From Acidovorax sp. A79 (lineage in GTDB: Bacteria > Pseudomonadota > Gammaproteobacteria > Burkholderiales > Burkholderiaceae_C), in assembly GCF_041154505.1 (NCBI RefSeq), contig NZ_AP028672.1, forward strand, positions 930,001-994,000: a stretch of 64,000 nt of DNA, written 5' to 3'. Position 1 is the stretch's first letter; each line of letters opens with the position of its first letter. Positions 48,950 through 56,819 of the stretch are shown in pieces. A model generated the notes under the pieces. It saw only the letters and a list, made by a program, of their open reading frames with translations, was not told where the DNA came from and did no database searches. The translations under genes and the position numbers were made by a program.

Positions 48950-49441
48950 ATGCCAGTGCACCTCATCTACGCCCGCGCCGCCAACGGTGTGATCGGCAAG
49001 GACAACGCCCTGCCCTGGCACCTGCCGGAGGACATGGCGCACTTCAAGCAGCTGACACAGGGCTGCCCCGTGGTGATGGGCCGCAAGACCTGGGATTCGC
49101 TTCCGGCGCGTTTTCGCCCCCTTCCGGGCCGTACCAACATCGTGGTGACGCGCCAGCACGACTGGCAGGCCGAAGGCGCCCGGCGCGCCGAGAGCCTGGA
49201 CGCTGCGCTGGCGCAGTGCGATCCCCGCCAGACGGTGTGGGTGATCGGCGGCGCGCAGATTTACGCCGAGGCCCTGCCGACGGCAGACCGGCTGGAGGTG
49301 ACCGAGATCGCCCGGGACTTCGAGGGCGACGCCCACGCGCCAGTGCTAGGCAAAGCCTGGACCGAGGCCGCCCGCAGCGACCATGTGAGCACCAACGGCC
49401 TGCCCTTCAGTTTTGTGAGCTACGTGCGCGCGGCGGATTGA
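48950..49441 (+). CDS. folA: Dihydrofolate reductase
   Basis: 163 residues. It reduces dihydrofolate with NADPH. Seen: LIYARAANGVIGKDNALPWH, LPEDMAHFKQLTQG, VVMGRKTWDSLP, GRTNIVVTR and VWVIGGAQIYAEALP. The start at 48950 has AAGGA ten bases upstream; the frame extends back into the DUF4337 gene and was trimmed. It is the last core gene before the phage-derived module. Confidence 0.97.
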   Translation: MPVHLIYARAANGVIGKDNALPWHLPEDMAHFKQLTQGCPVVMGRKTWDSLPARFRPLPGRTNIVVTRQHDWQAEGARRAESLDAALAQCDPRQTVWVIGGAQIYAEALPTADRLEVTEIARDFEGDAHAPVLGKAWTEAARSDHVSTNGLPFSFVSYVRAAD

Positions 49442-49488
49442 GTCCCTCTTCGGCGGGCACGTGCCCTTCCCTTTCCCCTTGCACCCAG

Positions 49489-49779
49489 CTATGGGGTGGC
49501 TGACGGGGTTTTTGCAGGCGTCTGGTCGCGCGACGGATCGGGCGTCTGTGCGGGCGTGACGGCCGGAGCGGGTGCCGGTGTTTCCGCCGGCGTCTGCGCG
49601 GGCGGGGGAGCTGGCGTCTGGGCCGGCGTCTGCACCGGCGTGGAGGCAGGGGTCAACGCAGGCTGCAAGCCAGGCACCACCGCAGGAGTGTTCACCCCCC
49701 GGGCACCTGCAGCCGCGGCCCCCATGGCCAGAACGCAAGCCAGCGCTTGCTGGTGAATGGATGGCATGGAGTTCTCCAT
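49489..49779 (-). CDS. Small exported Thr-Pro-Ala repeat protein
   Basis: 96 residues. A signal-like N-terminus (about 5-27) is followed by ~60 residues of low-complexity repeats of the type TPAQTPA, TPAETPA, with several irregular units. No known domain. The start could be at 49779 or the Met at 49767. It lies immediately downstream of the lysis cassette on the same strand, but may be a host gene; the bias toward T, P and A makes a coding reading credible but not certain. Confidence 0.5.
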   Translation of the reverse strand: MENSMPSIHQQALACVLAMGAAAAGARGVNTPAVVPGLQPALTPASTPVQTPAQTPAPPPAQTPAETPAPAPAVTPAQTPDPSRDQTPAKTPSATP

Positions 49780-49858
49780 CGGGAACAGATTTGCAGTTTC
49801 TGCGGAGCGGCGGCCGCGAAGCGTCGGACAAATGCCCGTGCTCCCTAGGAACAGGACG

Positions 49859-50191
49859 CTATCGGTCGCCGGAGCCGCCTATCTGTTGCCCAGCGCGAAC
49901 GCGTGCACCCTGCTGCGCTGCATTGACAGGGGCCGTACACACCAGCAAGGCGGCTCGCATCTTCAGTTCGTACCCCTCACGGCGCTCGATCTCGGCCTGC
50001 GCGGCCCGGATGAACTCATCCACCGTGGCACCCGGCCGCAGCAGCTCGGTGGGCATCATCGGCCGATCGGGCACGGGTTCTTTGCATTCCATGGGCACAG
50101 CCACGTTCACACGCTGCATTTCAAGGCGTGGGGCCGTGGCACAGCCCGAAAGCCACGTGCAGCAAGCCATCAAGGCAATAGCTGTCTTCAT
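49859..50191 (-). CDS. Rz1-like outer-membrane spanin lipoprotein
   Basis: 110 residues with a lipoprotein signal MKTAIALMACCTWLSGC (Cys17). The mature part is short, with PVPDRPMMPTELLRPG and a helical stretch, as in spanin o-subunits. Its ATG overlaps the Rz stop as ATGA; unlike lambda, it is not nested inside Rz. With Rz it would bridge and fuse inner and outer membranes in the last step of phage lysis. Confidence 0.75.
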   Translation of the reverse strand: MKTAIALMACCTWLSGCATAPRLEMQRVNVAVPMECKEPVPDRPMMPTELLRPGATVDEFIRAAQAEIERREGYELKMRAALLVCTAPVNAAQQGARVRAGQQIGGSGDR

Positions 50192-50553
50192 GGCTTCGAC
50201 CTCCCCTTCAGCCAGCCATCCACCCGAGCCTGGGCGCTGGCACATGCGTCGCCCGGCACGGGGGCGGGCGTGAACAGAATCTTGTCTGCACGCTGGTTGT
50301 GCCACTGCGCCGCGCTGGCCGCTGCCGTGCGCGCAGATGCCGCGTCGCGGGCCCGTTGGCTGGCCAGCTTGCGCAGGTCGTCCACGGCATTGCTGCATTC
50401 ACTGGCCATTTGCCGAGCACCATCACGCTGGCCCTGCATATCGCGCAGCGCGGTCTGTGCCTTGGCAGTGGCGTCGCGCTGGCCCAGATAGGCCCAGCCC
50501 AGCAGGGCATTCGCGGCCAGGCTCAACAGAACGACGGTTTGCCCGGGACTCAT
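50188..50553 (-). CDS. Rz-like inner-membrane spanin
   Basis: 121 residues: an N-terminal membrane anchor (about 5-22, TVVLLSLAANALLGWAYLG) and a periplasmic coiled coil (about 25-90) rich in Gln, Ala and Arg, ending with a Cys-containing tail. The ATG at 50553 overlaps the endolysin stop as ATGA. Position after the endolysin and before an Rz1-like lipoprotein supports the call more than the sequence itself. Confidence 0.75.
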   Translation of the reverse strand: MSPGQTVVLLSLAANALLGWAYLGQRDATAKAQTALRDMQGQRDGARQMASECSNAVDDLRKLASQRARDAASARTAAASAAQWHNQRADKILFTPAPVPGDACASAQARVDGWLKGRSKP

Positions 50554-51164
50554 GGTTGCGCCTCCGTGATCAGGCCTGCGCTGAAATGCCCGTCCCTGCC
50601 CCATTCCACGCACAGCTCGCGCGTGGTGGCGCGCCGGTCCTGCAGGCCGGGCAGCACCACGGACTGGCCGTTGGCGGTGCCGTGCACCCATCGGGGCATC
50701 TGCTCGCACATGCCCACCAGGTTGCCCGAATTGCCCAGGCGAACAAGCGTGGTCCCGTCCAGCACCGAAGGCCCGAGGTTGTAGACCATATCGATCAGAC
50801 TGACACGCACCCAGACGTTGTAGGTGTCCCAGTGCTTGAGGCCGGCACGGGCCAGACGCTCGGCCTCGATGTACCTGGCCAGTTCCAGCCTCTTGCAATC
50901 CTCCCGCGAGTACGTACGCCCTGCCGCCACCTCCGGGCCGGTCACGCCGTTGCACACGCTGAGGGGCTGGCCCTTGCCCAGCCTGTCCACGTAGGGCGTG
51001 CCGATGTGCCTGCCGCTGCTTTCGTAGTAGCTGCCCAGCTCCATCGCCAGGATCACGGCATCGCTAGGCTGCTGCGCGGCAAAATAGGTGGCAACGCCAC
51101 CGGCCGCTCCGAACGCGATGGCGAGCGCAGTCTCGACCAGGCGCTTGCGAATGCCCTCTTTCAT
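50550..51164 (-). CDS. Phage-type lysozyme (endolysin) with N-terminal membrane segment
   Basis: 204 residues. A hydrophobic, Gly/Ala-rich helix (about 12-30, TALAIAFGAAGGVATYFAA) could be a signal-anchor-release segment. The catalytic domain resembles GH24 phage lysozymes: Glu48 in SYYESSG, Asp60 in PYVDRLG and Thr75 in VCNGVTG are plausible catalytic residues, and VSLIDMVYNLG is the typical following helix. Four or more cysteines may control activation. It would cut peptidoglycan. ATGA overlaps on both sides. Confidence 0.78.
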   Translation of the reverse strand: MKEGIRKRLVETALAIAFGAAGGVATYFAAQQPSDAVILAMELGSYYESSGRHIGTPYVDRLGKGQPLSVCNGVTGPEVAAGRTYSREDCKRLELARYIEAERLARAGLKHWDTYNVWVRVSLIDMVYNLGPSVLDGTTLVRLGNSGNLVGMCEQMPRWVHGTANGQSVVLPGLQDRRATTRELCVEWGRDGHFSAGLITEAQP

Positions 51165-51478
51165 TTTTGTCCCTTCAGCGTGGCCCAAAAGCCGACGCAC
51201 GCTGTGCCACAGCCCACGATATAGGCCATCGGCTTTGCCAATTTGCCAAGCCAGTTCAGCACCTTGATAGCGCCCTTGAATGACTGGAATAGTTCGACCA
51301 GCTCCGCCGTGTCGGCCTTCACCGCCTGAGTGGCCAGGGTGTTGGCTTCCAGTTCTCGTCGCAGCGCTATCTGCTCCGCTTCCACGCGCGAGAGCCGCTG
51401 ATCACCGTCATCAAGGCGCGCGTGGATGGTCGCGGCGGTAGTGAGGTCCACGAGGTTTCCGAAGTCGTCCTGGATCAT
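51161..51478 (-). CDS. Holin-like small membrane protein
   Basis: 105 residues. A soluble helical N-terminal part (about 15-70, RLDDGDQRLSRVEAEQIALR) precedes a single C-terminal hydrophobic segment (about 80-100, PMAYIVGCGTACVGFWATL). Such coiled-coil plus one-helix proteins occupy the holin position in betaproteobacterial prophages. Pore formation is inferred from position upstream of the endolysin. ATGA overlaps link it to the genes before and after. Confidence 0.6.
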   Translation of the reverse strand: MIQDDFGNLVDLTTAATIHARLDDGDQRLSRVEAEQIALRRELEANTLATQAVKADTAELVELFQSFKGAIKVLNWLGKLAKPMAYIVGCGTACVGFWATLKGQK

Positions 51479-51639
51479 GGCGTAGCCTCCCGCACCACCC
51501 CCTGTAAGCCCTTTCGCCGCGTCTCGAAGCAGCCCGGTACCGGCTCTGCCGACAGGCGCGGCGGCCTGTACCCAATGGCGTGGAGGAACCTGCGCGCACC
51601 GCGCTGCAGCACTTCGTGGCTTTGCTGGATCAAGTTCAT
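51475..51639 (-). CDS. Small ORF heading the lysis cassette
   Basis: 54 residues (MNLIQQSHEVLQRGARRFLH...). The ribosome site GGGAG six bases before the ATG and the ATGA overlap with the holin-like gene support translation. It is the first gene downstream of the repressor-controlled leftward promoter. No recognised domain, no membrane segment. Confidence 0.5.
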   Translation of the reverse strand: MNLIQQSHEVLQRGARRFLHAIGYRPPRLSAEPVPGCFETRRKGLQGVVREATP

Positions 51640-51717
51640 GCAGGGCTCCCGGTGACCCGAGGGGCTGTGCAGTGCGCGCCCCCGGGAAAATAAATGGATT
51701 CTTTGCTTGAGCATGAG

Positions 51718-51790
51718 GAATTAAACCATAGTTCATTTCAAAAATCAACCATAGTTCAACAAAAACGCGGCAATATTGCAACCATGGTTG
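51718..51790. promoter_or_regulatory. Left operator cluster and lysis promoter
   Basis: Three related sites: AACCATAGTT at 51724-51733 and 51747-51756 (centres 23 bp apart), and a perfect palindrome CAACCATGGTTG at 51779-51790 whose centre is the repressor's own start codon. On the minus strand a promoter is embedded: -35 TTGATT (51748-51743), 17-bp spacer, -10 TTTAAT (51725-51720), reading into the lysis genes. Site 2 overlaps the -35 and site 1 the spacer/-10. Confidence 0.75.
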
Positions 51791-52509
51791 AATACAAAGA
51801 ACGGCTAGAAATGGCAATGAAGCGCGCAGGAATGGGGGCTGCCCAGCTCGCGGCTGCGATCAACATGTCCTACCAAGGCGTGAAAAAGGTAATGGACGGG
51901 AAGTCGGGGGCCTTCAGTGCCGAGAACAACTCGAAGGCAGCAGCGGCCTTGGGAGTCAATTCTGATTGGCTCGCGACCGGCGATAGAGCAATGGGAGCAG
52001 GTGGCGTTACGGTCGCATCTGCGCCGCACGAAGCCCCGTCAGATGATCCTGGCGGACCACCCGATTTGGTGATTGCAGAGTTCGCGACGGGCGGCGGAAT
52101 GGACAGAAAGGGCCAACTGCTCCTGGATGACCAGCCAGGCATCATCAGAAGCTGGCGCGTCAGCAATGATTGGCTGCGCCTGAATGTCCCCTCTCACACA
52201 GGTACAAGGAACCTGTGCATCGTGACCGGCTTTGGCCCCTCGATGCGACCCATGTTTAATCCTGGCGATCCGCTGCTGGTGGACATTGGTGTGAGAACGG
52301 TCAACCATGAGGGGGTGTATTTCTTCCGCGTCGGCGAGGAAGGTTTCATCAAGCTGATTCAGCGCGTGCCAGAGTTCGACGGTCCAGGCTTCAACCTCCG
52401 GATCATCTCCAAGAACCCTGACTTCCCTCCCTATGACCTCTCGCCACGGAATCCGCATTTTGAAGTGCTGGGCAAGGTGCTGACGGTGTGGAGGAGCGAG
52501 CAGTACTGA
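51784..52509 (+). CDS. Phage-type repressor: HTH plus S24 peptidase-like domain
   Basis: 241 residues. N-terminal XRE helix-turn-helix (about 8-65, AAQLAAAINMSYQGVKKVMD), linker, and a C-terminal LexA/CI-like domain with the Ser-Lys pair Ser153 (GFGPSMRPMFNPGD) and Lys190 (EEGFIKLIQR). No clear Ala-Gly cleavage site precedes the domain (FATGGG is there instead), so RecA-driven self-cleavage is not assured. ATG 51784 is used; the ORF's earlier start at 51694 would overlap the operators and leftward promoter. No ribosome site is evident. Confidence 0.9.
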   Translation: MVEYKERLEMAMKRAGMGAAQLAAAINMSYQGVKKVMDGKSGAFSAENNSKAAAALGVNSDWLATGDRAMGAGGVTVASAPHEAPSDDPGGPPDLVIAEFATGGGMDRKGQLLLDDQPGIIRSWRVSNDWLRLNVPSHTGTRNLCIVTGFGPSMRPMFNPGDPLLVDIGVRTVNHEGVYFFRVGEEGFIKLIQRVPEFDGPGFNLRIISKNPDFPPYDLSPRNPHFEVLGKVLTVWRSEQY

Positions 52510-52856
52510 GGGTTGCCCAAGCAGCCATCACTCGCGTGCCGGGCCAGGGTGTGGCCTGGGTTCCGCCAGCCCTCTGGCGGATCAAGCGAGGTAGCACCCT
52601 CGGTCATGCCGCCTTTGTTCGCAGCAGGTCTTACCGTTGACAGCCCGTGCGGGGGCGAACGCACGCGAACAGACCACCACCCGAATGCCAGCCAGAACAT
52701 GCTCCCGCAGCAGGTGGCCCGTCCCGTGGCACATCACACATGCCAACGAAGTCATGCACGGGACGCACCCACAGTTTTGATAGAGCCCAAGCCATCCAAC
52801 CGCCCTTGACGCGGGTTTTGGTGCCGCATGCCATCGGTGTCGATATACCAAAACTG

Positions 52857-52895
52857 AACCATAGTTGACACCATGATTGAACTATGGTTTAATTC
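52857..52895 (+). promoter_or_regulatory. Right operator pair and promoter
   Basis: Two sites, AACCATAGTT (52857-52866) and its reverse complement AACTATGGTT (52880-52889), with centres 23 bp apart, the same spacing as on the left. The promoter is strong: -35 TTGACA (52865-52870), 17-bp spacer, -10 TTTAAT (52888-52893). The 18-mer TGAACTATGGTTTAATTC at 52878-52895 is identical to the reverse complement of 51718-51735 at the lysis promoter. Confidence 0.78.
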
Positions 52896-53256
52896 TTACA
52901 TCGCACCAACAAACGCGAAACGAACCGGCCCAGACGCACACAGGGCCACGCCGACCGGAGACGCGAGGGGTTCCAGGCCTGAGGGCTGCAGCGTGTTGGG
53001 AGCGACGGGCACCATCGGTATCGACCAAGCCGCCCGGGCTCCTTAAAAAGTCAGCTGCCGATGTTGCTTGCCCCACCTGTGGAGCATTCGTCCGGCACAA
53101 GAGCAGACCCGGGCATGGCCGGGCGAGCGCGGGCAGTCCGGCCCGTCATCAGTCCGCCAAAGCGCGGTAAACGGTGCTCAAACGGTGAGGCGTAGACAGC
53201 CAAGAACAGAAACGGTCACGCCGGTTGAAATGCCGGCATGCCCTTCGCAAGAGGGG

Positions 53257-53294
53257 CGATCCCAGATGGCTTTGCGCTGAGCCATCTGGGATCG
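53257..53294. repeat. Perfect 15-bp inverted repeat (hairpin)
   Basis: CGATCCCAGATGGCT and AGCCATCTGGGATCG flank the 8-base loop TTGCGCTG. No T-run follows, so it is not an ordinary terminator. It would lie in the untranslated leader of any transcript from the right promoter, about 130 bases before the Com-like gene. Confidence 0.8.
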
Positions 53295-53424
53295 AGAAGA
53301 TAAGACAGGGCGAGTGCCTGGAGTGCGTCAACACCCCAGGCACCCGCCTCCGCCGTGAGCGAGCACGGCATTGGCCAAGACCCTGCCACCTGATCAGGCC
53401 GGGGCATTATGGACTATGCCGCAT

Positions 53425-53607
53425 ATGCAAGAAGTGAGATGCGCCAACTGCAATCGCAAGCTGGCAGAAGGACTTTTCCAACACCTGAACATCAAGTGCC
53501 CGCGCTGCGGGACGCTGAATTCCATGAGGGTCGAGAACCCCTCTCCGTCGAGAGTCGAGAACTCCGAACCAGAGTGCCAGCGAGCTCCTTCATCAACTTT
53601 GACTTAA
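53425..53607 (+). CDS. Com-like zinc-binding translational regulator
   Basis: 60 residues. MQEVRCANCNRKLAEGLF, then IKCPRCGTLNSM: two CxxC pairs as in phage Mu Com, which binds mRNA and switches on translation of the mom DNA-modification gene. The Pro/Ser/Glu-rich tail is variable. Com-like genes usually precede a DNA-modification gene; here the next gene, 11 bp downstream, is not Mom-like. In-frame ATG 53416 is an alternative start. Confidence 0.82.
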   Translation: MQEVRCANCNRKLAEGLFQHLNIKCPRCGTLNSMRVENPSPSRVENSEPECQRAPSSTLT

Positions 53608-53618
53608 AAGGCAATCAA

Positions 53619-54140
53619 ATGACTCTCTATATCAATGGCTCTAAAACCGTTGGCAATGGCGGCCTGGCCGGTGAATATCTCGCCACGGGTAACAACTCGG
53701 GCGTTTTCATTGACATGTGCCCGTATACGTTCGGCAGCACTGGCACTCCTCACTCGGGGGTGGCCTTCTTCTGCAACGACGTTCCCGCTGGGGCTCCCGA
53801 CAATCAAATCTGGTCGGGGCAGGCTCGTGGTGTGACGTTCTGGAAAAACGGTGATAACCGTGTCATCAAGGCCGAGGACTGGCTGGGCGGTGCCAACAAT
53901 TTCTATCACTACCCCATCGGCACCTGGGAGCCTGGGGTTGTCTATCGTGTCACGGCAACGTACACGGCAACCGACGTGCAACTTGCTGTGTACAAGACTG
54001 ACAACGCCGGCAACGTCATCGCCTTGACGGCTAGCGCCGTGCGCCCGCTCAACGTACCCAACAGCAAGGGCACGCATGCTTGCGTGTTTGCGACCGATGG
54101 CAGCACCGTTGGCTGCACCCCGGTTGCGCTGTACCCCTAA
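53619..54140 (+). CDS. Protein of unknown function downstream of Com
   Basis: 173 residues, start fixed by AAAGG before ATG 53619. It has no signal peptide or membrane segment and looks all-beta: many Gly, Thr, Val and aromatic residues, with SGVFIDMCPYTFGSTGTP, GVAFFCNDVPAGAPDNQIWS and VVYRVTATYTATDVQLAVYK, like a jelly-roll or phage adhesion domain. Four cysteines. GC content is lower than in the neighbours. I do not recognise the family. A terminator follows at 54206. Confidence 0.7.
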   Translation: MTLYINGSKTVGNGGLAGEYLATGNNSGVFIDMCPYTFGSTGTPHSGVAFFCNDVPAGAPDNQIWSGQARGVTFWKNGDNRVIKAEDWLGGANNFYHYPIGTWEPGVVYRVTATYTATDVQLAVYKTDNAGNVIALTASAVRPLNVPNSKGTHACVFATDGSTVGCTPVALYP

Positions 54141-54205
54141 TGGGATGACGAGCCTCCTGCACATGGAGGCTGCCCGATGGCGCACGCAGGCCAACGGGAT
54201 TTAAC

Positions 54206-54234
54206 AAAGGGCCCGCTTCATGCGGGCCTTCTTA
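54206..54234 (+). terminator. Rho-independent terminator
   Basis: GGCCCGC, loop TTCAT, GCGGGCC, extended by a G-T and an A-T pair and followed by TTCTT. It closes the Com and 173-residue gene unit. Confidence 0.75.
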
Positions 54235-54250
54235 CGCCCCTCGCAAGAGG

Positions 54251-54355
54251 GCCATCACACAACCGTCGAAGGCTCCTTGAGTAGCCTCCAGCCGAACGCG
54301 ATAGGCTGGAACGCGAAACCGTGGGGTTCGATTCCCCGGGCGGTAGTGTGATGGC
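54251..54355 (+). ncRNA. tRNA-like cloverleaf element of unknown function
   Basis: A 105-base region folds on paper into a multi-arm structure. An outer 10-bp stem (GCCATCACAC/GTGTGATGGC), one A-A mismatch, then a 6-bp inner stem (ACCGTC/GGCGGT, one G-T); inside it a D-like arm (AGGCT/AGCCT), an anticodon-like arm (CCAGCC/GGCTGG with a 10-base loop) and a perfect T-arm with GGTTCGATTCC. It departs from a true tRNA: no CCA, no T8, no GG in the D loop, and an anticodon loop of 10. It could be a decayed phage tRNA or a tRNA mimic. It lies upstream of the excalibur gene. Confidence 0.5.
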
Positions 54356-54549
54356 GACGACAACAAGCGAGTCAGGCGTCCCTGCCTGTTTCGCCATCAT
54401 CACGAAGCCGCTGATCGGTCATGAGGTATTTCCGCTGGTAAGTACGAAAACTGCGGCATCCAGCAGAGCGGGCCGGGGGATTCCTGGCCGTGTGCGCCGC
54501 AGGTGGAAGCCCTGCCCTTCTTATCATTGTCCCAACGACGGAGGGACGT

Positions 54550-54858
54550 ATGGCAAAGGCTTTCATGGTGATGATGGTTGCGGTGGTCGCACTCATGGGC
54601 TACCTCATTCACAAGCACGAGCAGAGCAAGCCGCCAAGCGACATCAGCGCGCCCCCTCCATTGAGCGAATCCCCAAGGCCCCGAACTGTTGACGTTGCAC
54701 GCAGCGTTTCCAGCACTCCTCAGTACCGGTGTGACGGCAGAACCCATTGCTCCCAGATGTCGTCCTGTGATGAGGCGACTTTCTTTCTAAAGAACTGCCC
54801 CAACACCAAGATGGACGGGGACAACGACGGCATTCCGTGCGAGCAGCAGTTGTGCTAG
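54550..54858 (+). CDS. Excalibur calcium-binding domain protein
   Basis: 102 residues. An N-terminal membrane helix or signal (about 2-18, AFMVMMVAVVALMGYLI), a Pro/Ser-rich linker, and a C-terminal excalibur domain with QYRCDGRTHCSQMSSCDEA and the EF-hand-like DGDNDGIPCE (about 88-97). Four or more cysteines suggest an oxidising compartment. GGAGGG before ATG 54550 fixes the start. A strong terminator follows. Confidence 0.85.
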   Translation: MAKAFMVMMVAVVALMGYLIHKHEQSKPPSDISAPPPLSESPRPRTVDVARSVSSTPQYRCDGRTHCSQMSSCDEATFFLKNCPNTKMDGDNDGIPCEQQLC

Positions 54859-54888
54859 CCCCGTTCAGCCAAACCGAATCCTGATTTC

Positions 54889-54913
54889 AGCCCGCCACGC
54901 GCGGGCTTTTTTT
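54889..54913 (+). terminator. Rho-independent terminator
   Basis: AGCCCGC, loop CACGC, GCGGGCT, then a run of seven T. It ends the excalibur gene. Confidence 0.85.
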
Positions 54914-55037
54914 CGACCGCGCCGGGGAGTCTCCTCGCTCCCTTCTAAGTTCCCCCGGGACACCCCGCAAGGGCAGCGGTTCTTTCTTCCCCATTGGCCG
55001 CCACCAGGCCGGAATTCCTTCCCCCTCGGAGATTCCT

Positions 55038-55217
55038 ATGAACAACGTCAACGAGACGGTGCAGGCGTTCCTGCGCCCGCACCTCCCCTGGACCGCTGCA
55101 GAGCGCAAAGCGGTGGCCCAGACCGAAGCCCGCCAGAGAGCCGAAGACCAGCGCCGCCAGGACCGCGCGCTGATGGACCAGCAGCAGAACTTCCGCTCCA
55201 TGGGGGCACTGCGATGA
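55038..55217 (+). CDS. Small phage-type protein, Gln/Arg-rich
   Basis: 59 residues, below the usual ORF cut-off. MNNVNETVQAFLRPHL, then a charged coiled-coil-like stretch of Gln, Arg, Glu and Ala. A GGAG lies nine bases upstream. The stop overlaps the next start as ATGA. Function unknown; such small genes are common in phage early regions. Confidence 0.55.
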   Translation: MNNVNETVQAFLRPHLPWTAAERKAVAQTEARQRAEDQRRQDRALMDQQQNFRSMGALR

Positions 55218-55387
55218 ACAGCCTCATCCAGCAGGTCCGTACCGCCCAGGTGCGCGCAGGCGAAGACGCTGTGCTCCCGAACCTCCAGAGCCTGGGCCTT
55301 GTTCCAAAGCTCAAGCACGAGGTGGCCGTGGTTCAGACCATTGAAGCCGCATCAGCGCGCCACCTGAACGAAATGCGAGCCCCATGA
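55214..55387 (+). CDS. Small phage-type protein
   Basis: 57 residues (MNSLIQQVRTAQVRAG...LNEMRAP), helical, no known domain. It overlaps by four bases with the gene before and the decayed gene after (both ATGA), which is good evidence that the three were one translated unit. Confidence 0.55.
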   Translation: MNSLIQQVRTAQVRAGEDAVLPNLQSLGLVPKLKHEVAVVQTIEAASARHLNEMRAP

Positions 55388-55729
55388 AGATCATCCACAT
55401 CTCCTACAGCGGCCCCGACCACAAGATCCGCGACGCCAGCGGCAAGGAATAGAAGTCGAGATGCACCCGCGTTTCGGGTCCATCTTTCTCGGGCACCACG
55501 GCGATCCCACAGCTGACCAGCCAGGTGCCCGGCCCCCGGTCTGGGATGCCGTCCAGTTCCGTGCCAAGCAGCGAGCGGCGATCGGCACCGACGGGTTCTC
55601 TGCACCTGGAAGTCTGAGCCTGAGCCGGCGCTGGTCTACCCGGGCAGGCTCAACTATGCAGTCGCCGGCTCCTCAGTGGCGAAGAAGTACGGCCGCGCTG
55701 AGCAGGCGCGCAACGAGAGGACAACATGA
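55384..55729 (+). pseudogene. Phage gene broken by two frameshifts
   Basis: Three consecutive frames make one protein. Frame 1: MKIIHISYSGPDHKIRDASG, then KE and a stop TAG at 55450, where one missing base (TAC to TA) would restore Y. Frame 2: EVEMHPRFGSIFLGHHGDP to AAIGTDG near 55600. Frame 3 after one extra base: LCTWKSEPEPALVYPGRLNY to AKKYG and a stop at 55729. Hence one deletion near 55450 and one insertion near 55600. The intact family looks like a small phage protein of unknown function. Confidence 0.7.
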
Positions 55730-55921
55730 CGCCGACTCAATCCCCCTTGCCTGCCAAATCAACCGCCCCGCCGAAAGCTCGATGTGTCCCGGGCGACCAT
55801 CTACCGGCTGGTGAAGGACAAGCACCTGAAACTGGTCAAGGTCGGCAAGCGTGCCAGCCGCATCACGGCGCAAAGCCTCACCGACAATCTGGAGTCCCAC
55901 GGGGCCGACAATGCTGGGTAG
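55726..55921 (+). pseudogene. Excisionase/AlpA-like HTH gene with frameshift
   Basis: It starts ATG 55726 (overlapping the previous stop), reads MTPTQSPLPAKSTAPPKAR, and then the frame changes near 55775 to KLDVSRATIYRLVKDKHLKL, followed by VKVGKRASRI, a clear helix-turn-helix of the MerR/AlpA/excisionase type, stopping at 55921. No single frame covers both. It marks the right end of the phage-derived region. Confidence 0.65.
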
Positions 55922-55943
55922 GATTCCGCCACTGCGCGGTATT

Positions 55944-56000
55944 TTCAAGCGCTTGAATTCTGGGTAGCTAGCCGGGTAGCTACACCATGCAACCCAGAAT
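55944..56000. repeat. Palindrome and inverted repeat before xth
   Basis: TTCAAGCGCTTGAA (55944-55957) is a perfect 14-bp palindrome. It is abutted by ATTCTGGGT (55957-55965), whose inverted copy ACCCAGAAT is at 55992-56000, with GTAGCT repeated in between. The block is at the junction between decayed phage genes and the host gene xth, so it could be a boundary remnant or an xth regulatory site. Confidence 0.5.
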
Positions 56001-56042
56001 ATGCAACATCAAGCTATTGATTTATAAAAGGATTATTCATCA

Positions 56043-56819
56043 ATGCAAATAGCCACCTGGAACGTGAATTCCCTGTCGGTGCGCCTGCCCCAGGTGCTGG
56101 CCTGGCTGGAGGCCAATCCGGTGGATGCCCTGTGCCTGCAGGAACTCAAGCTGACCGACGACAAATTCCCGCACGACGTGCTGAAGGAGGCGGGTTACGA
56201 AGCGGTGACCTTCGGCCAGAAGACCTACAACGGCGTGGCCATCCTGAGCCGGCATCCCCTGCGGGACGTGGTGCGCAACATCCCGGGCCACACGGACGAA
56301 CAGGCCCGCGTCATCGCCGCCACGGTGGACACCCCCTCCGGCGCATTGCGGCTGGTCAACTGTTATTTCGTCAATGGACAGGCCCCTGGCACGGAAAAGT
56401 TCGCGTACAAGATGCTGTGGCTTACGGCGCTGCACCGTTGGCTGCGCGAGGAGTTGCGGGCCCACCCGCGGCTGGCGCTGCTGGGCGACTTCAACGTCGC
56501 GCCGGAAGACCGCGACTCATTCGACCCGGTGGGCCTGAAGGACACGATCCACCACACTGTGGAAGAGCGCCAGCACTTCCAGGATTTGGTTGCGCTCGGC
56601 CTGACCGATACCTTCCGCATGTTCGAGCAACCTGAAAAAACCTATTCGTGGTGGGACTACCGCATGCTGGGCTTCCAGAAGAACCGGGGCCTGCGCATCG
56701 ATCACATCCTGGTGAGCGAGGCCCTGCGCCCGACGGTGACGGCGTGCGTGGTGGACCGCGCTCCGCGCAAGAACCCCCAGCCCAGCGACCATGCACCGGT
56801 GGTGCTCACGATGGCGTGA
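56043..56819 (+). CDS. xth: Exodeoxyribonuclease III
   Basis: 258 residues. AP endonuclease/3'-exonuclease of base-excision repair. Seen: TWNVNSLSVRLPQVLAWLE, CLQELKLTDDKFP (metal Glu), NGVAILSRHPL, LLGDFNVAPEDRDSFDP, FSWWDYRM-like YSWWDYRMLGFQKNRGLRID and the closing SDHAPVV. Start is the family N-terminus. It is followed by a convergent terminator. Confidence 0.96.
   Translation: MQIATWNVNSLSVRLPQVLAWLEANPVDALCLQELKLTDDKFPHDVLKEAGYEAVTFGQKTYNGVAILSRHPLRDVVRNIPGHTDEQARVIAATVDTPSGALRLVNCYFVNGQAPGTEKFAYKMLWLTALHRWLREELRAHPRLALLGDFNVAPEDRDSFDPVGLKDTIHHTVEERQHFQDLVALGLTDTFRMFEQPEKTYSWWDYRMLGFQKNRGLRIDHILVSEALRPTVTACVVDRAPRKNPQPSDHAPVVLTMA

Follow-up and report, generated by a model that had tools for sequence, protein, structure and literature searches.

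A CI-like repressor beside a lysis cassette between folA and xth of Acidovorax sp. A79: a probable deletion remnant of a prophage

The stretch of DNA analysed here, referred to as the window, comprises 64,000 nucleotides (nt) of the 5.7-Mb chromosome of Acidovorax sp. A79 (genome G000; contig NZ_AP028672.1, positions 930,001 to 994,000). Between folA and xth it carries a CI-like repressor gene that directly faces a phage lysis cassette. This 6-kb locus is very probably what deletions left of a temperate phage with its integration site at the 5' end of xth, and the adjacency of repressor and lysis genes is a product of deletion. Its most likely working state is that of a repressor-locked leftover lysis cassette. 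The origin of the locus is ordinary, and its wiring mildly interesting. The relatives used for comparison are Acidovorax genomes, among which G037 is marked as the same species.

Five lysis open reading frames (ORFs) read leftward, the repressor reads rightward, and further rightward phage genes follow. The features that carry the argument are given below, with window coordinates and strand.

48950-49441: folA, left flank of the interval
49846-56041 (right limit approximate), 6196 bp: whole prophage remnant, with limits taken from the empty site in G037
49859-50191, minus: Rz1-like outer-membrane spanin (phrog_3580, function unknown, 3.1e-12; phrog_456, Rz-like spanin, 1.2e-3; lipobox by eye)
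50188-50553, minus: Rz-like inner-membrane spanin (phrog_214, Rz-like spanin, 1.3e-3; 74% identity to viral contig L129)
50550-51164, minus: phage lysozyme, the endolysin (PF00959, 1.2e-13; phrog_7, endolysin, 3.4e-21)
51161-51478, minus: holin-like protein, assigned by position and one C-terminal hydrophobic stretch (by eye)
51475-51639, minus: small ORF of 54 amino acids (aa), first of the lysis operon; a single 54-aa homologue (P0033), 94%
51640-51714, minus: putative deletion junction, where a cro-like start codon (51714) stands in frame with the small ORF and yields a 79-aa ORF (51475-51714)
51718-51745, minus: leftward promoter-like sequence TTGATT-17-TTTAAT, chosen by eye, containing the left copy of an inverted repeat and placed as in 14 related loci
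51724-51789: three left operator-like sites AACYATRGTT, the last of which (51780) overlaps the repressor start
51784-52509, plus: CI-like repressor, helix-turn-helix and S24 peptidase (PF00717, 5.3e-11; phrog_4, 1.3e-31)
overlapping the right operator-like sites, plus: rightward promoter-like sequence TTGACA-17-TTTAAT, chosen by eye, containing the right copy of the inverted repeat, with a layout as in related phages
52857-52889: two right operator-like sites, overlapping the rightward promoter-like sequence
55962-56062, plus: integrase arm-like sites GGGTAGCTA (55962 and 55974, just before the core at 56043) and attachment core
56043-56819: xth, right flank of the interval

Scans of the interval ORFs with Pfam, PHROGs and NCBIfam, down to a length of 40 aa, show no integrase, replication, packaging or virion gene. 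The initial annotation of this DNA had described a CI/LexA-like repressor facing a complete lysis cassette between folA and xth, devoid of integrase, replication, packaging, head and tail genes. All of these parts lie where it placed them (the holin by position), and the same scans agree on the absences. Its reading of the locus as a prophage remnant also holds, given that genome G018 has a related prophage, about 65 kb long, in this position and that the window has a single attachment core. A chance grouping of genes is unlikely, because the lysis block aligns with viral contig L129 (79% over 1291 bp) and the right-hand part with a G037 prophage (83-96%).

Origin of the locus at the xth attachment site

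The attachment (att) core ATGCAAATTGCCACCTGGAA coincides with the first codons of xth and is present once in the window, at 56043; the folA-side end is lost. In G018, a prophage of about 65 kb lies between folA and xth with the att core at both ends. From folA, its order runs att core, integrase (phrog_1, 4e-51), lysozyme, long structural-looking ORFs, portal (phrog_156, 4.7e-160), Ant (phrog_63, 4.8e-50), replication initiator or helicase loader (phrog_6493, 5.5e-33), repressor and Erf (phrog_155, 9.5e-36). On the xth side, the Erf annealing protein is followed by a Xis-like gene, arm-like sites, the att core and xth. Nine proteins of this prophage were scanned, and four of the nine had no named structural match. 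In genome G034 the two ends of a similar prophage are seen on separate contigs, and G001 has a Xis-like piece beside xth. A remaining attachment site, the lack of integration, replication and virion genes, and a larger relative integrated at this site (G018, and both ends in G034) together place the locus among defective prophages.

The lysozyme and repressor genes are separated by about 43 kb in G018 and about 45 kb in the G037 prophage, where terminase, portal, major head, another virion protein, an antirepressor and an O-like replication protein lie between them. Since relatives keep the two genes 43-45 kb apart with structural and replication genes in between, and since a related prophage occupies the folA-xth site in G018, their juxtaposition in the window is best explained by deletion. 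The initial annotation had itself allowed that full-length relatives at this site would reduce the locus to a plain deletion remnant, and the G018 prophage, with integrase, portal and replication genes between folA and xth, is such a relative.

Host DNA shared with G037 ends at 49845 in the window and resumes at 56042, and the empty site of G037 holds 179 bp of host DNA absent from the window. Because the G037 site is empty and the folA-side end is gone from the window, the phage probably entered at xth and later lost its left end together with some host DNA; alternatively, G037 once carried the phage and then lost it precisely. At least three deletions would have shaped the remnant. One would have removed attL, the integrase and about 180 bp of host DNA. 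Another would have taken replication, antirepressor, packaging, head and tail genes between the cro-like start codon and the holin, and the last would have removed part of the right-hand region.

The junction appears to be confined to this genome. Among 399 family genomes, a sample of a larger group, the junction stretch has a full match only in G000; 15 other family genomes give matches of at most 77 bases (E 2e-5 to 1e-3), and an exact 23-mer of the junction is in no viral contig searched. Thirteen phage records match in pieces, and none covers 80% of the stretch. Because G037 lacks the element, insertion and deletions probably took place within the species, and the open frames are no evidence of selection. 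The element looks young.

The folA-xth stretch was searched in 47 congeneric genomes, with gaps counted by hand. The gap is below 1 kb on one contig in 30 of the 47 genomes, 3.4-9.6 kb in eight (G006, G014, G017, G021, G026, G030, G045 and G046), 29.5 kb in G003 and 65 kb in G018; it is 6.6 kb in the window. In the remaining six, the genes lie on different contigs or far apart, one end only is seen (G034, G001), or there is no match (G033). The eight intervals of 3.4-9.6 kb hold other genes; at E 1e-2 neither the lysis proteins nor the repressor of the window has a relative there, and one Com match reaches 0.010 (G045). Three of these intervals (L053 in G021, L054 in G017 and L055 in G014) share a left-reading ORF of about 1390-1420 aa that begins MSTPNASHVLQQIFILATG. 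In G003 (L171-L172, G003:C1:2796501-2828000), the 29.5 kb between the two genes form an island; an integrase-like ORF, judged by eye, adjoins folA, and none of the window's phage proteins has a relative there at E 1e-2. A search of this interval in relatives, as initially proposed, thus recovered a larger prophage in G018 and no similar compact element in the eight intervals or in G003. The repressor-lysis order was also to be sought elsewhere, and its junction was not recovered in other family genomes or viral contigs.

As an observation on the genus, the xth start is a phage attachment site: the two ends of the G018 prophage share an identical 20-nt core, accompanied by GGGTAGCTA arm-like repeats (L044, L041, L061 and L062).

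Closeness of repressor and lysozyme was considered as a signal in itself and rejected. The 47 congeneric genomes contain 35 PF00959 places, 4 of which (counted by eye) lie no more than 5 kb from an S24 place, and being neighbours is thus nothing special by itself. These four are the window, G002 and G029, where both genes point in the same direction within apparently larger phage regions (by eye), and G019. The S24 place in G019 is probably UmuD, since in viral contig L136 the same lysis block has a UmuC-like ORF next to it.

Lysis cassette, operators and junction

Neighbouring lysis frames overlap by 4 nt, and all are open. The lysozyme has a hydrophobic N-terminal stretch that by eye resembles a signal-anchor-release (SAR) sequence, and it keeps 48 of the 49 columns that are invariant in 18 homologues. 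The holin-like protein has no Pfam or NCBIfam match and only a weak match to an unnamed PHROG (0.096); 31 other proteins match it at E <=1e-3. Homologues of the Rz1-like protein end at residue 90-96 of its 110, and its final residues, which adjoin the host junction, may be non-native. In viral contig L129, a series of structural-looking genes precedes the lysis block, on whose far side stands an integrase-like gene (by eye). The initial annotation suggested that selection on these genes be assessed. Against L129, the ratio of nonsynonymous to synonymous substitution (dN/dS) is low, at 0.05 for the holin, 0.11 for the lysozyme and 0.19 for Rz; it reflects mainly phage life before the deletion and is uninformative on the time since.

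The motif AACYATRGTT occurs five times in the window (51724, 51747, 51780, 52857 and 52880), always beside the repressor, with 0.05 copies expected, and no pair of such sites exists elsewhere in the G000 genome. An exact 18-nt inverted copy flanks the repressor (51718-51735 and 52878-52895). The ATG at 51714 lies 5 nt past the -10 box, and the first residues, MLK, are those of the cro-like protein of L119. Because the frame from this ATG runs into the 54-aa ORF, the cro-like start is apparently fused to the lysis operon. The resulting 79-aa ORF has no PHROG match. We infer leaderless translation from ATG 51714, with coupling through the 4-nt overlaps. On paper, the left promoter and operators are wired to the lysis genes. 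The initially proposed wiring of repressor to lysis thus finds a plausible form in operator-like sites and a promoter-like sequence between the two.

Related loci display the same arrangement around the repressor. The 16-mer TGAACTATGGTTTAAT is carried by 38 viral contigs, 15 of which encode a repressor relative that aligns from residue 1-4; all 15 have at least two operator sites. Searching with the repressor protein led to 21 loci (8 + 13, several being C-terminal-only matches), none of which has two. The first divergent gene encodes a cro-like protein of 66-80 aa in 10 of the 15 loci, with its ATG a few nt past the -10 box. Two of these proteins were tested and gave weak matches to phrog_409 (transcriptional regulator); replication genes then follow. 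In the other five loci the first divergent gene was given no name, and one that was tested had no PHROG match. These loci (L095, L099, L104, L119, L122, L123, L127, L128 and others) form an immunity family in which the repressor stands between paired AACYATRGTT operators and is accompanied by a cro-like gene. The position of the cro-like ATG near the -10 box suggests leaderless translation across the family.

The proposed mechanism follows from this layout; operator binding, promoter activity and lethality are its presumed elements. In related phages, the same early leftward promoter would drive the cro-like gene and replication. The large central deletion would have placed this promoter and its operators before the lysis operon. 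With repressor on the operators, lysis would be silent. Should the repressor fail, expression from the early promoter would supply holin, lysozyme and spanins, killing the cell with no phage released. The locus probably locks itself, because loss of the repressor ahead of the lysis genes would be lethal. Such a self-locking locus would be expected to decay first in its lysis genes and last in its repressor. A literature search on fusions of early promoters to lysis genes turned up only unrelated papers.

Right-hand part of the remnant

From 52901 to 55302, the window is 83-96% identical to the G037 prophage. The features of this part are as follows.

53057-53130, minus: Burkholderiales-2 RNA (RF02917; 76.5 bits, gathering threshold 67.9), right of the repressor
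53419-53607, plus: Com-like zinc ribbon (PF10122, 2.8e-13; 97% to the G037 prophage)
53619-54140, plus: unknown phage protein (60% to the G037 prophage; no family)
54550-54858, plus: small protein with an excalibur domain (PF05901, 1.6e-11; 99% to the G037 prophage)
55038-55387, plus: two small phage ORFs; the second (55214-55387) diverges from its relative after residue 30, which marks the third putative deletion
55388-55921 (region), plus: decayed phage gene in several frames, followed by an AlpA/Xis-like C-terminal end
55784-55921, plus: AlpA/Xis-like end of 45 aa (PF12728, 1.1e-4, below its cut-off; 80-84% to G034 and G018)

The Xis-like gene is open only across its last 45 codons and is therefore broken. 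Together with the gene spread over several frames, it confirms the erosion of the right edge that had been noted initially. A 73% match to the decayed gene (window 55380-55690) occurs on the second replicon of G000 (G000:C2:146260-146568).

Besides the window, Burkholderiales-2 RNA was seen in three of six distinct sources examined, namely Bordetella phage IFTN9, the G037 prophage and a G032 region; these copies are at L004 8866-8939, L039 16768-16841 and L048 11455-11528. It looks like an RNA of the prophage immunity region. A literature search for this RNA found no paper.

Competing readings and known systems

Several points weigh against a locked deletion remnant. Both promoters were picked by eye, and a consensus scan finds 1 promoter-like site versus 1.7 in shuffled sequence; neither promoter-like sequence is listed by the scan, which accepts a -10 box only with A as its second base. 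At one of the columns invariant in its homologues, the lysozyme carries an unusual residue. No sequence was found that joins this repressor N-terminal half to this lysis block. Because the parent phage was not found, the locus may instead be a two-phage mosaic or a product of prophage recombination, and the deletion ends are rough.

The initial annotation favoured a self-lysis or cargo-release device kept by the host, with repressor and lysis genes acting as a controlled suicide or release switch. Repressor, operators, promoter and lysis frames are all correctly placed, with every lysis frame open, and precedents for kept prophage lysis genes and for repressor-controlled self-lysis have been described (PMC7918800, PMC7969949). 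The lysis operon of DLP12 in Escherichia coli K-12 is outlined as transcribed and is said to be domesticated for vesicle control (PMC7918800). Its essD-ybcS-rzpD/rzoD genes likewise form a holin, endolysin and spanin operon left in a defective prophage. For its control, a Q-like factor and RpoE are cited (PMC7918800), in contrast to the CI-like repressor neighbour here, and its retention was shown by experiment, whereas retention here would be hypothetical. In alpRABCDE of Pseudomonas aeruginosa, AlpR is described as autocleaved on DNA damage and as acting through the antiterminator AlpA (PMC7969949). As at this locus, a repressor is reported to restrain self-lysis genes with no surrounding phage (PMC7969949), and the window does place a repressor beside holin-type self-lysis genes (holin by position only). 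An AlpA step is lacking: only the 79-aa fused ORF lies between the left promoter and the lysis genes, and the AlpA-like fragment at 55784 is of Xis type and broken, not an intermediate activator. The remnant also differs in its Thr-Gly dipeptide and as a single copy at a phage attachment site, and no conserved locus emerged from the 399 family genomes or the viral contigs. As an alp-like system the locus does not qualify, since it lacks both conservation and the AlpA step.

The dipeptide bears on induction. LexA and CI repressors are cleaved at Ala-Gly. The window repressor has Thr-Gly at the usual place, where relatives carry Thr, Ser, Ala or Val, and its linker also contains an Ala-Gly; because of this variation and this second dipeptide, cleavage may still occur. 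No LexA box CTGT-N8-ACAG is present in 49400-56100, and the looser CTG-N10-CAG occurs at three places there. The Thr-Gly, the missing LexA box, the decayed neighbouring genes, the absence of the junction from same-species G037 and from every other family genome and viral contig searched, and dN/dS values dominated by phage life before the deletion make a kept device highly improbable.

Antirepressors of related prophages suggest another route of induction, lost in the remnant. Gifsy-type prophages have uncleaved repressors that are reported to be removed by antirepressors, including those acting on repressors of other phages (PMC3121763). The Ant-type antirepressor genes of the remnant's relatives resemble this arrangement; Gifsy prophages differ as inducible phages with small LexA-controlled antirepressors, as outlined in that source, while the remnant has none. 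An antirepressor made by an infecting or resident phage might lift the repressor and cause an early burst, as an accidental or kept anti-phage defence. Both the G018 and G037 prophages carry Ant-type antirepressors (phrog_63), cross-action between phages has been described (PMC3121763), and G000 has one gene for a phrog_63-type protein, at 5052336, whose product could conceivably target this repressor. The phrog_63 match of this protein covers only 120 of 431 profile positions, however, the locus is single-copy, and action of any Ant on this repressor would be hypothetical, so that we consider this reading improbable. A one-step suicide switch, in which lysis genes fused to the cro start under one repressor would be fired by a phage antirepressor before phage is made, is likewise a long shot.

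A complete minimal mobile element or phage satellite would account for the compactness, the immunity region, the Xis-like end and the arm-like sites at one end. It was rejected because such an element needs two ends plus an integrase, whereas the window has one att core, no integrase or replication gene and a broken Xis-like gene; we give it almost no credence. The interval ORFs also contain no tail gene in Pfam or PHROGs, which argues against a tailocin or other phage-tail bacteriocin.

The locked deletion remnant finds a parallel for repressor loss in the Listeria monocin. That element is likewise remnant-like, with a CI-like repressor and a lysis module, and deletion of the repressor is reported to kill the cell by switching on the monocin and lysis genes (PMC6872733). 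The monocin differs in owning tail (bacteriocin) genes and an anti-repressor protease, according to that account. By analogy, repressor loss here is expected to kill, and because it is expected to be lethal, the remnant should lose lysis before the repressor.

The locus would thus clearly illustrate that a deletion may leave behind a prophage remnant whose gradual, gene-by-gene loss is hazardous, as the repressor must stay until lysis is broken. Its operator-repressor set, with five spaced sites, a cognate N-terminal domain and a cro-like gene behind the promoter, represents a compact immunity family. If it is true that antirepressors fire the switch, common prophage debris could act as an anti-phage defence.

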